A stretch of 33,516 bases of DNA, from the NCBI RefSeq assembly GCF_002895485.1, contig NZ_AZRK01000005.1:1-33516 (forward strand), read 5' to 3'. The stretch's first letter is position 1; each line of letters opens with the position of its first letter. The notes under the pieces were generated by a model. It had not been told where the DNA came from, did no database searches, and worked only from the letters and a program-made list of their open reading frames with translations. This document shows positions 13,758 to 26,150 of this stretch, piece after piece. The translations under genes and the position numbers were made by a program. This DNA comes from Petrotoga sp. 9PWA.NaAc.5.4 (lineage in GTDB: Bacteria > Thermotogota > Thermotogae > Petrotogales > Petrotogaceae).

Positions 13758-13832
13758 TGGCTCCGGGTGAGGGATTCGAACCCCCAACCTAGTGGTTAAC
13801 AGCCACCCGCTCTGCCGTTGAGCTAACCCGGA
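13758..13832 (-). tRNA. tRNA-Asn (anticodon GTT)
   Basis: 75 nt with encoded CCA. The acceptor stem pairs TCCGGGT with ACCCGGA. The anticodon stem GGTGG/CCACT (one G-T) holds CTGTTAA, giving anticodon GTT. D arm and T arm (GGGGGTTCGAATCCCTC) are intact. Confidence 0.97.
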
Positions 13833-15249: not shown

Positions 15250-15344
15250 CCTGATCCCTCGTTTATTTCTTTTATATCATTTCATTTATCTTATATTTAG
15301 TTCCCTTAATATTTTTTTGAAATTTTCATAATGTTTTATCAGAA

Positions 15345-15720
15345 TCAATAAAAAAGAAGAAAAATCAACATTGAATTGAAATTAAATATAGGAAATAATG
15401 AACATAACCACACTAAGAAAACAGTCATAACAATACCAATGGCCATAAAGTAATGATTAAATAAAGAACAAAGAAAAGTATTACTTACCTCGTACTTAGA
15501 AGCAAACAGTATACCCCTCGTTTTAGCCATGCCTTTTTTCCACCTTTAAATTTCAAAAAAATTCTCCAGTTACGACCTCCAATAGCAACCAAAGAAGATA
15601 AAACAAGTATCAAGCCAAATACATTAAAAACACTAATAACTAAATAATAAGCCAAATAACCTTTAGAAAAGTCTCCAGTTTTGCTTTTTTAGAGTTTTTG
15701 AAAAATATCTGGGATGTTTA
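15345..15720 (-). pseudogene. Remnant of a polytopic membrane protein gene
   Basis: On the minus strand one frame reads KTGDFSKGYLAYYLVISVF, continues as a hydrophobic helix ending LSSLVAIGGRNW, then FLKFKGGKKAWLKRG, and stops near 15500. It has no start codon and an in-frame stop directly upstream. A second frame, overlapping it, reads MAKTRGILFASKYEVSNTF and then two hydrophobic helices to 15345. The two frames look like pieces of one membrane protein that has suffered a frameshift and N-terminal loss. I cannot name the family. The remaining gap to 15903 is AT-rich and holds nothing recognisable. Confidence 0.4.
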
Positions 15721-15903
15721 TTGGACTTCTTTTCTTTAATTTCATTATAAGATTATATCATTTAGACAAAAAATAAAAAAAAATGGGGCCTTTCTTGCAC
15801 AAAATATTTTACATTACCTTTTAAATACCAATAAAAATGAATAATTTGTTTAAATATTTTTGAATATTTTCTTCTATCTTCCGTTAAATATAATTATTTA
15901 AAT

Positions 15904-15932
15904 TTGCATTGTAACATGTTTCATAATAAAAT
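15904..15932 (+). promoter_or_regulatory. Orphan promoter with TGTAA-N4-TTTCA operator
   Basis: TTGCAT (15904-15909), 17-nt spacer, TAAAAT (15927-15932). The spacer begins with TGTAACATGTTTCA, a near-perfect inverted repeat. The same arrangement occurs at 17969-17997 and 23068-23096, where it precedes sugar genes. No protein gene follows on this strand for 2.1 kb, only a short stretch ending in a terminator. Confidence 0.65.
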
Positions 15933-15938
15933 GTTATT

Positions 15939-16052
15939 AGATAAAAAAATGGATCTTATATTTTTTTAAAGCCGCATATACCTCTCATTCTTGAAAAAGA
16001 AAAGATAGTATATTTTTCTTTCTTTACGGAGGTAATTCCTCCGTAGTTTTTT
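15939..16052 (+). ncRNA. Candidate small RNA of about 110 nt
   Basis: Defined by the operator-bearing promoter at 15904-15932 and the hairpin terminator ending near 16052. A 12-codon frame (starting near 15932, MLLDKKMDLIFF) lacks a ribosome-binding site and is probably not translated. The middle contains an exposed ACCTCT (near 15987), complementary to the AGAGGT ribosome-binding sites of the permease gene at 25140 and of the gene at 13425. A remnant promoter-plus-terminator of a lost gene is the main alternative. Confidence 0.4.
16025..16052 (+). terminator. Rho-independent terminator of the candidate small RNA
   Basis: TACGGAGG (16025-16032) and CCTCCGTA (16038-16045) form a perfect 8-bp stem around TAATT, followed by GTTTTTT. 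The T run lies only on the plus-strand side, so it ends a plus-strand transcript. Confidence 0.8.
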
Positions 16053-16160: not shown

Positions 16161-17327
16161 TTATATTTTTTTAAATGTAAAAAACAGGAACACAAAAAAC
16201 ATCAAAGAATAAAATCCTGAAAATAAATAAATTAAATTTAATCCGCTTACACTGTATAGCGATCCCATCATTATTGGAGATATAGATCCTGAAATTTTAA
16301 AACATACTTCTCTAAAAGAAATAGCGGCTCCACGACTTTTTTGATTAGTTAAATCGATAGTTAATAAATGTAAGCTAGGCAGATTTATACCATGTCCGAT
16401 TCCATAAAGAATAAGTGAAATAATTAGCCCTATTACATTTTTTGAGAGTATCATTGATAAAAGTGCAAAACCAAAAAAAAGATAAGATAGAGTTAGTAAC
16501 CATTTGCCAGTAAATCTTTTGTTAAGTTTAACTATTTGAGAAGAAGTAACTGCAGCTGAAAAAGATACGATCATCATCAAAAATCCAGTAATTAGGGGAG
16601 TAAATCCAAAATTGTTTTCTAATAAAAATGGAAAATACGTTGAATAAGCTCCACTAAAAAAGAAAAAAGTTGAAAAACCCGCCAGATAAATAAGTAGTAT
16701 TTTAATATCTTTCAATGTTCTGAATAGTTCGGAGAAATATCCTGTAAAACTTTCAGTTTTTTCGTGTTTGGAATCTTCTAAGTATATTAAAGTAAAAATA
16801 GCTATTGGAACAGCCAATATAAATAAAAAGAAAGGAAATCGCCAACTTAAAAGAGCCAATAACCCAACAAAAACGGGAAATAATGCAAATCCTAAGTTTG
16901 CTGCAATTTCGTTATAGCTTATAACTTTTAATCTTTCTTCACCATTAAAAAGATCTCCTATAAGAGTGATGTTTAAAGCTCCTAAAGCACCCGCTCCAAC
17001 CCCATTTAGTAATCTCAGAAAGAGCAAAACATTAAAATTGTTGGTAAAACCACTTAACACACCAGAAATAGCACATAAAAAGAGCAGAGGAACTAAAAAC
17101 TTTTTTCTTCCATATCTATCTGCTAAGATTCCAAACACAGGAGTTAGAAAAATAGCAGGAATATTAAAAAAAGCTATAAAAAGACCTATTTGTTGTTCGG
17201 TAACATCAAAGGTTTTTTTTATTAAAGGAAGCACAGGCGTTAAACCTGCTATACCTAAAACTACTATCAAAGTTATTCCAAAAATTATAACATACATATT
17301 TCTAATAGAATCTTTTTCTTTGTTCAT
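16161..17327 (-). CDS. Major facilitator superfamily transporter
   Basis: 388 aa with twelve hydrophobic helices. The MFS motif A is clear between helices 2 and 3 as GILADRYGRKKFL, and the helix-4/5 region carries LLNGVGAGALGALN followed by LIGDLFNGEERLK. These features place it with DHA1-type proton antiporters or sugar-efflux carriers. The substrate cannot be read from sequence. GAGGGGG precedes the ATG. On the same strand the remnant of an alcohol dehydrogenase gene lies 57 nt upstream, so this gene may once have been the second of an operon. It has no obvious tie to the beta-glucan genes. Confidence 0.85.
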   Translation of the reverse strand: MNKEKDSIRNMYVIIFGITLIVVLGIAGLTPVLPLIKKTFDVTEQQIGLFIAFFNIPAIFLTPVFGILADRYGRKKFLVPLLFLCAISGVLSGFTNNFNVLLFLRLLNGVGAGALGALNITLIGDLFNGEERLKVISYNEIAANLGFALFPVFVGLLALLSWRFPFFLFILAVPIAIFTLIYLEDSKHEKTESFTGYFSELFRTLKDIKILLIYLAGFSTFFFFSGAYSTYFPFLLENNFGFTPLITGFLMMIVSFSAAVTSSQIVKLNKRFTGKWLLTLSYLFFGFALLSMILSKNVIGLIISLILYGIGHGINLPSLHLLTIDLTNQKSRGAAISFREVCFKISGSISPIMMGSLYSVSGLNLIYLFSGFYSLMFFVFLFFTFKKI

Positions 17328-17968: not shown

Positions 17969-17997
17969 TTGAAATGTAAATTGTTACATATTATTAT
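17969..17997 (+). promoter_or_regulatory. Operator-bearing promoter ahead of the GH94 remnant and GH16 gene
   Basis: TTGAAA (17969-17974), 17-nt spacer, TATTAT (17992-17997). The spacer starts with TGTAAATTGTTACA, an inverted repeat of the same type as at 15904 and 23068 (consensus TGTAA-N4-TTWCA). It would fire toward the phosphorylase remnant at 18112 and on through element H to the laminarinase at 18536. Confidence 0.6.
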
Positions 17998-18111: not shown

Positions 18112-18312
18112 AAATACGGATATTTCGATGACACCCAAAAGGAATATGTAATAACCATAGTAAAAACACCATATATTTGGATTAATTATTTGGGTGGTGA
18201 AGTTTTTTTGGATTAATCTCTAATACACAAGGAATACTGGTCTCATTCATTGCAACCTATTAAGAAAGATCTTGATGAATATGAATATAGATATGTAGGT
18301 ACTTTAGAAATG
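18112..18312 (+). pseudogene. N-terminal remnant of a GH94 cellobiose-type phosphorylase
   Basis: The frame from 18112 reads [15 protein letters not shown] then [17 protein letters not shown], a stop, and in the same frame KEYWSHSLQPIKKDLDEYEYRY. GH94 phosphorylases begin with the same order: (R/K)YGYFDD-x-x-(R/K)EYVIT, TP-x-PWINYLG, and about 45 residues later W-x-P-x-x-x-x-LD-x-YECRHG. The stop and the shortened interval show an internal deletion. A GGGGA ribosome-binding site survives at 18098, but the start codon is changed. The fragment ends exactly at the left terminus of element H (18301), so the other 90 percent of the gene is gone. Phosphorolysis of cello- or laminari-oligosaccharides would suit this locus. 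Confidence 0.75.
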
Positions 18313-18502
18313 ATAATTTTCAGAAAATAAGCATTTGAATTTAAAATGGGTCCAGGGCATAGCCCTTTCCCCCTTGCTTGGCTACAAGTACCGAAAAAGG
18401 TAAAGAAATTTGGAATTAGTAAGGACTAGAAGCGTGTAGGTATTTTGTAAAAGAATCAACTCTAAAATATACATATAATAAGGATTTTGTAATTTTTAAA
18501 GT
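18301..18502 (+). repeat. Full-length TIR element, copy H
   Basis: 202 nt from ACTTTAGAAAT to ATTTTTAAAGT, terminal repeats matching at 10 of 11 positions. The core hairpin keeps AGGGC/GCCCT although its loop is ATA instead of GGA. The second hairpin is degraded (GGCTACAAGTACCG). TATAAT at 18474-18479 near the right end could serve as a -10. The GH16 start codon is 34 nt past the right end. Confidence 0.8.
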
Positions 18503-23067: not shown

Positions 23068-23096
23068 TTGCAATGTAACGTGTTTCATTTTATTAT
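23068..23096 (+). promoter_or_regulatory. Operator-bearing promoter of the oligosaccharide ABC operon
   Basis: TTGCAA (23068-23073), 17-nt spacer, TATTAT (23091-23096). The spacer opens with TGTAACGTGTTTCA, differing from the 15910 operator at one base. It lies 226 nt before the binding-protein start codon. Confidence 0.65.
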
Positions 23097-25075: not shown

Positions 25076-25111
25076 AGTTCGTGGGGGAATGTTACGCCCC
25101 CACTAACTTTT
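25076..25111 (+). terminator. Intercistronic hairpin, partial terminator
   Basis: GTGGGGG (25081-25087) pairs with CCCCCAC (25097-25103), and outer GTT/AAC bases extend the stem. The following TAACTTTTT is a short T run. Placed between the binding protein and the permease, it fits the usual attenuation or mRNA-stabilising hairpin that keeps binding protein in excess. Confidence 0.7.
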
Positions 25112-25139
25112 TCAAATATACTTTTAAGAGGTGAAATAT

Positions 25140-26150
25140 GTGAAAGGCTTTGCAAAGTATTTTACACAAAAATTATTGTGGTACGCTCTTGCTTTTTTTC
25201 TTGCTTTATTTTTAAATTTTTTTCTTCCCCGGTTAATCCCTGGAGATCCTATTTCGGTTATCGTTAGTCAAATGATGTCAGGAAATGTTGCGAGTGAAGC
25301 ACAGGAAAGAATTTATCAATCTTTTGTTAAGGAATTTGGATTAGATAAGCCACTTATAGTTCAATTTTTTAATTATATAAGAAACATCTTTAAAGGTAAT
25401 TTAGGAACTTCATTTAGTTTGTATCCACTTTCTGTTAATGAAGTATTAGGAAATGCGATTCTATGGACTATATTTCTTCAATTTCCGGCGATAATTGTCG
25501 GATGGATTTTAGGCAACTTATTAGGAGCAGCGGCAGCATATAGAAAAGGAGTTTTTGATAAAACAATTTTTCCAGTCGCATTATTCATTAATTCAATTCC
25601 ATATTATGCATTAGCCATAATATTATTATATGTTTTTGGAGTTTACTTAGGCTGGTTCCCAATAGGCGGTGGATACAGCAGAACTTTGCTACCTTCATGG
25701 AGTTGGACATTTATTGTAAATGTATTGCATCATTACTTTTTACCTTTTATTTCCATTGTATTAGTTACAATTGGGGGCCAAGCCATAGGTATGCGAGAAA
25801 TGTCGATATATGAATTAAATACAGATTATGTTACCTACTGTAAGATGTTAGGTATGAAAGATAAAAAGATTCAAAGGTATGTATTTAAAAACGCCATGCT
25901 TCCTCAAATTACCGGTCTTGCCATCAGTCTCGGAACTATGATTGGAGGGGCGTTGATTACAGAGATTGTTTTTGGATATCCTGGTGTTGGAACTTGGCTA
26001 TTCAACGGGATAAGACAATTAGATTACCCAATGATACAAGGTTCTACTTTAATAATTGCGTTAATGGTACTTATCGCTAATTTTATTTTGGATATGGTAT
26101 ATGGATTTATTGATCCAAGAATAAAAGCTGCACAAACGGAGGAGGGATAA
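25140..26150 (+). CDS. ABC importer permease, DppB/OppB type
   Basis: First transmembrane subunit of the oligosaccharide importer. 336 aa with six helices. The N-terminal helix with FLPRLIPGDPI is typical of the DppB branch. The cytoplasmic EAA-like loop that docks the ATPase reads YVTYCKMLGMKDKKI, and GYPGVGTWLFNGI is a conserved late segment. An upstream in-frame GTG at 25131 lies inside the AGAGGTGA ribosome-binding site. The GTG at 25140, 6 nt after that site, is preferred. The stop is followed after one base by the next permease gene, a sign of translational coupling. Confidence 0.92.
   Translation: MKGFAKYFTQKLLWYALAFFLALFLNFFLPRLIPGDPISVIVSQMMSGNVASEAQERIYQSFVKEFGLDKPLIVQFFNYIRNIFKGNLGTSFSLYPLSVNEVLGNAILWTIFLQFPAIIVGWILGNLLGAAAAYRKGVFDKTIFPVALFINSIPYYALAIILLYVFGVYLGWFPIGGGYSRTLLPSWSWTFIVNVLHHYFLPFISIVLVTIGGQAIGMREMSIYELNTDYVTYCKMLGMKDKKIQRYVFKNAMLPQITGLAISLGTMIGGALITEIVFGYPGVGTWLFNGIRQLDYPMIQGSTLIIALMVLIANFILDMVYGFIDPRIKAAQTEEG

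Follow-up and report, generated by a model that had tools for sequence, protein, structure and literature searches.

The window, by which we mean the whole 33,516-nt stretch of DNA that was analyzed, lies on contig C5, and its right half is a beta-glucan cluster with genes for a GH16 enzyme carrying carbohydrate-binding domains, a GH5 cellulase, an opp-type importer (a binding protein, two permeases and two ATPases), and GH1 and GH3 enzymes. An initial annotation of this DNA had pointed to an operator-bearing promoter at 15904 that is followed approximately 110 nt on by a terminator, with no protein gene, and we saw the same arrangement again in the sequence. The upstream neighbor of this short unit is a tRNA-Asn(GTT) gene (13758–13832, minus strand), and the next gene 3′ of it in the window is a convergent MFS gene (16161–17327, minus strand).

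Two other features of the neighborhood were observed. More than 600 bases around 15250–15800 are without a recognizable gene, and the minus-strand frames at 15250–15800 contain hydrophobic pieces broken by stops, perhaps from a decayed membrane-protein gene. Between the unit and GH16 there is a repeat with a GGGCGTAGCCCT-type palindrome, resembling repetitive extragenic palindromes; repeats of this type, as tandem arrays or single copies, were seen at ~18330–18405 in the window, at ~8750–9340 in L035 and at ~13100–12860 (minus strand) in L034.

Promoter, operator and probable regulator

The promoter of the unit (15904–15932, plus strand) has a −35 box, TTGCAT, at 15904–15909 and a −10 box, TAAAAT, at 15927–15932, and the 17-nt spacer between them holds a 14-bp palindromic operator, TGTAACATGTTTCA (15910–15923). 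An identical layout was found at two further plus-strand promoters, one at 17969–17997 (TTGAAA-TGTAAATTGTTACA-..-TATTAT), 5′ of a GH94 phosphorylase remnant and GH16, and the other at 23068–23096 (TTGCAA-TGTAACGTGTTTCA-..-TATTAT), 5′ of the gene for the importer solute-binding protein. Zero-mismatch matches to the −35/operator pattern TTGNNNTGWAANNNGTTWCA numbered three in the whole 2.22-Mb genome, and all three were these beta-glucan cluster promoters at 15904, 17969 and 23068. A generic sigma-70 scan returned 20 sites versus 22.7 in shuffles, and since there was no excess, the case for the promoter rests on the operator and not on the hexamers.

The GH94 remnant (18112–18297, plus strand) comprises the N-terminal ~62 codons, with one internal TAA; the gene is intact in two relatives, G003 and G009, and the 17969 promoter probably now drives GH16. 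The only other GH94 in the window's own genome, encoded elsewhere, is a distant one (34% identity).

In G003, G009 and two Petrotoga genomes, a LacI-family gene is conserved together with the cluster. Its ortholog in the window's own genome, 66% identical to that of G003, was located on contig C6 (3643–4647), which gene order in the relatives suggests is the continuation of C5. A palindromic operator common to the cluster promoters, together with a linked LacI-family gene, is what would be expected of a LacI/CelR-type regulon. In T. maritima, the LacI-family regulator CelR controls a beta-glucan importer, glucanases and a cellobiose phosphorylase (PMC3750489). Given this precedent and the LacI ortholog linked to the cluster, a CelR-like LacI-family repressor is the likely controller of the unit, with binding and inducer being properties that we infer.

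The predicted RNA

The predicted RNA spans 15940–16052 (plus strand, ~113 nt), its start being placed 7 nt past the −10 box. It would end at an intrinsic terminator (16024–16052, plus strand) with a 9-bp stem that includes five G-C pairs, a loop of 5 and six Ts. Terminators of such strength occur at a rate of ~0.4 per 10 kb in this genome, and shuffling the local sequence 400 times yielded none. We found no plausible ORF in the predicted RNA, the longest ATG ORF being six codons (MDLIFF) without a ribosome-binding site. In a search of Rfam 15 at the gathering threshold, only tRNAs were matched in the window, leaving the RNA unit without a family.

The RNA body holds a short conserved core, ACCTCTCA (15980–15987, plus strand), which is identical in G003 and G009 and is a candidate pairing (seed) region; it is partly paired in predicted folds, making its accessibility only partial. 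The unit has several of the features of trans-acting sRNAs of the Hfq type, namely its own promoter, an intrinsic terminator, no ORF and a conserved GC-rich short stretch, and an Hfq gene was present in 21 of 21 genomes of the family.

The same unit in relatives

G003 and G009 belong to one genus, different from that of the window genome but within the same family. The complete G003 genome has 2,053,097 bases, a size compatible with Defluviitoga tunisiensis, and in G009 (Thermotogota bacterium USSF_maxbin.001) the unit is on contig JAKOZG010000024.1. Both carry an orthologous cluster with ~81–91% protein identity (GH16, GH5 and importer genes), and each has three operator promoters within it, of which one precedes GH94, one the importer and one a short gene-free unit, such that all three regulon promoters of the window were matched one-to-one in both genomes. 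In the window as in both relatives, the unit has tRNA-Asn (minus strand) on one side and GH16 (plus strand) on the other. The order within the unit of G003 and G009 is promoter-operator, TTATGCACCTCTCACT, a hairpin GTGGGTTA...TATCCACAT and a terminator, CACGGAG...CTCCGTG, and no gene was found between promoter and terminator in either. Measured in 40-nt steps, G003 and G009 are ~65–85% identical over the promoter and RNA, compared with ~28–55% over the noncoding stretch just upstream of the unit.

The initial annotation had proposed conservation of promoter, RNA body and terminator in relatives as a check, and we found position, promoter, core and terminator to be kept in G003 and G009. Most of the RNA body of the window was unalignable to theirs and their second hairpin is absent from the window unit, but ACCTCTCA is identical and similarly placed, and the CGGAG core of the terminator is kept. 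The terminator hairpin is retained with paired changes: one pair is altered on both sides between G003 and G009, and a second, C-G to U-A, distinguishes the window from both relatives, this one having been read by eye because MAFFT misplaced the joint alignment of the three terminators. When the window RNA body was dinucleotide-shuffled 20000 times, a GC-rich 8-mer common to all three arose 14 times (9 of these at a similar position), and native 82-nt pieces of the window's own genome share such an 8-mer more often than shuffles do (46/9720, 0.5%).

We also built a covariance model, R2, for which nothing but the transcribed portion of the unit in the two relatives was used, without the promoter. 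Searched against 517 kb of own-genome and Petrotoga DNA, R2 scored highest on the window unit, at full length, from just past the promoter (15952–16051). The score of 25.6 bits (E = 0.004 in the window and 0.06 in the 517 kb) was only just above that of the best background match, at 24.2 bits, to a terminator 3′ of GH5 in Petrotoga (L036), which was set aside as chance; it is modest alone, and its weight comes from landing on the single predicted place.

A nucleotide search with the unit across 60 relatives gave only short AT-rich matches because the RNA body diverges, and it was inspection of the syntenic position alone that revealed the homologs. Searches of Petrotoga and the rest of the family found no unit, so that three genomes only carry it; matches of an operator-core model in Petrotoga proved to be the promoter of the binding-protein gene and not an RNA. 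A scan of 151 genomes for a core-plus-terminator pattern gave scattered matches near the control level and no further homolog that we could recognize, the scan being a weak one in which the permitted spacing was too short for G003 and G009.

Candidate target of the RNA

The initial annotation had claimed that the RNA is complementary to AGAGGT-type Shine-Dalgarno (SD) sequences, including that of an importer permease. We saw this complementarity in the sequence and located it in the core, although the permease AGAGGT is at 25127–25132 and not, as had been given, at 25134–25139, which is off by seven. The candidate site as a whole (25127–25142, plus strand) consists of the SD AGAGGTG and the GTG start codon, at 25140, of a permease of the oppB type. 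In G003 and G009, the oppB SD is TGAGAGGTG, with 9 nt complementary to CACCTCTCA, and this 9-mer has only 7–8 occurrences per genome, counting both strands. The match in the window is shorter, with collinear pairing that reaches the start codon and first codons, and the pairing of the window RNA with oppB was equalled by 0 of 300 shuffled RNAs.

Among the genes of the cluster, oppB had the lowest pairing energy in the window's own genome and in G003, and tied for lowest with the binding-protein gene in G009. In target rankings drawn from 400-kb samples of ~350 genes each, oppB ranked 3rd of 345 sampled genes in the window's own genome and 16th of 356 in G003. Petrotoga oppB carries a similar SD, GAGAGGTGA, and no RNA copy was found there. 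These comparisons are only suggestive of the oppB SD as a target of the RNA.

The SD of rny, the RNase Y gene, is likewise TGAGAGGTG in all three genomes (L080, L088 and L096), where TGAGAGGTGA, fully complementary to the core, stands 5′ of the start. Here the TGA is apparently the stop codon of the upstream gene, so that the match is likely a coincidence and probably no target signal.

Interpretation and alternative explanations

On the sequence evidence, the locus is most likely a conserved, sugar-regulated small RNA gene found in two Thermotogota genera. For the more specific reading, a stand-alone regulatory RNA gene of ~113 nt whose core would pair with AGAGGU-type SD sequences and for which oppB is the best candidate, we consider the balance to lie slightly in favor. 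We envision that a LacI-family repressor would keep the promoter shut via the spacer operator, and that beta-glucan breakdown products would release the repressor, so that the RNA would be induced jointly with the genes for importer and glucanases. Transcription would end at the terminator hairpin, which would supply the 3′ end usually needed by Hfq, and the C/U-rich core ACCUCUCA would pair with AGAGGU-type SD sequences and thereby lower translation. The best candidate target in reach would be oppB, and because it is inside the co-induced importer operon, the RNA would trim the permease relative to the binding protein.

The complete scheme, in which one repressor switch controls both the importer operon and a beta-glucan-induced sRNA that pairs at oppB, within this operon, is offered tentatively, as we think it rather unlikely to hold in every part; if it is true, one signal would both switch the importer operon on and determine how much binding protein is made relative to permease. 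The idea of a beta-glucan-responsive small RNA, raised in the initial annotation, thus gains support in part: it is backed by the stand-alone short unit, the regulon-type promoter, and the position and key sequence conserved in two genomes of another genus. Pairing with the permease mRNA is above background (3/345 and 16/356) but not decisive.

An alternative that we judge possible, but doubtful, is that the unit serves, or once served, as a 5′ leader to the mRNA of the GH16 beta-glucanase. Its terminator would then attenuate or prematurely stop transcription, the ACCUC core would pair with GAGGU in the left arm as an antiterminator, and the MFS gene and GH94 remnant would now intervene in the window. 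Indeed, no regulated promoter is nearer upstream of GH16 in G003 and G009 than that of the unit, and both the window and G003 allow pairing of the core with the left arm of the terminator (outer pair U-A versus C-G). However, this antiterminator pairing is weak in G009 (−4.7 versus −9.7 and −11.5), and repeat arrays of some hundreds of bases separate the terminator from GH16 in the relatives. Moreover, GH16 is directly downstream of the unit in G003 and G009 only; in the window the convergent MFS gene follows, so readthrough would serve no gene in cis. That the unit is intact in the window beside a decayed GH94, with an oppositely oriented MFS gene next, favors a stand-alone role.

We regard as improbable that the unit encodes a tiny peptide, or that the RNA acts by protein binding instead of base pairing. 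An ATG is present just 5′ of the core in G003 and G009 (MHLSLYVG; MHLSLRVGYSVYFISYPHFIDYSRRNSP), but the two peptides differ in length and, beyond five residues, in sequence, and the window has ATA where the relatives have ATG; a missing start codon and differing peptides make a peptide unlikely, and no Rfam family matches the unit. About as improbable is a relic, the alternative named in the initial annotation, in which promoter and terminator were left after decay or rearrangement of a regulated gene: there is decay nearby (the GH94 remnant with its stop, and no recognizable gene at 15250–15800), but the annotation's own test, which we ran, showed G003 and G009 to hold the same short unit with no gene inside it, making a leftover promoter unlikely, and in the window the promoter, core and terminator are intact where the adjoining GH94 is not, with an operator that matches the regulon pattern without a mismatch.

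Relation to known systems

To our knowledge, no regulatory RNA in Thermotogota has an assigned role. Here the predicted RNA gene is conserved, its promoter is defined, an inducer is likely and the candidate targets are few, and it would thus offer a starting point for studying how these bacteria regulate polysaccharide uptake through RNA. The case would also illustrate that a promoter without a protein gene may mark a genuine gene. A stand-alone RNA gene of this kind invites comparison with Spot 42, which is controlled by CRP, whereas the window promoter has a local, apparently LacI-type operator; the two RNAs also differ in sequence and come from different phyla. Their likeness is that of short RNAs tied to sugar metabolism, with pairing, proposed here, at an operon-internal gene and unequal cistron expression: in enterobacteria, the Spot 42 sRNA pairs at galK, which lies within galETKM (PMC8577784).

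The cluster resembles the CelR regulon of T. maritima in having an opp-type beta-glucan importer, glucanases, a GH94 phosphorylase and a LacI-family regulator gene in a conserved cluster, a likeness in cluster content; the available portion of that source describes regulated protein operons and mentions no regulated RNA gene (PMC3750489). The same species has 13 putative ncRNAs, found by transcriptomics, which are likewise short intergenic transcripts in a Thermotogota species; for these, the part of the report consulted gives no regulation or conserved core, in which they differ from the unit (PMC3636130).

Other features of the importer operon

Between the binding-protein gene and oppB, we observed a strong hairpin with a T-rich stretch (25077–25113 in the window; also L035, L034, L157 and L158). 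This intergenic hairpin was present in every genome looked at, Petrotoga included, and may itself govern the relative amounts of binding protein and permease. In addition, the leader of the Petrotoga binding-protein mRNA (L103–L107, ~60–140 bases past the operator) contains a conserved stretch, GAGCACCTnCCACCTT, that is partly complementary to its own SD, GGAGGTG, pointing to possible regulation in the leader.
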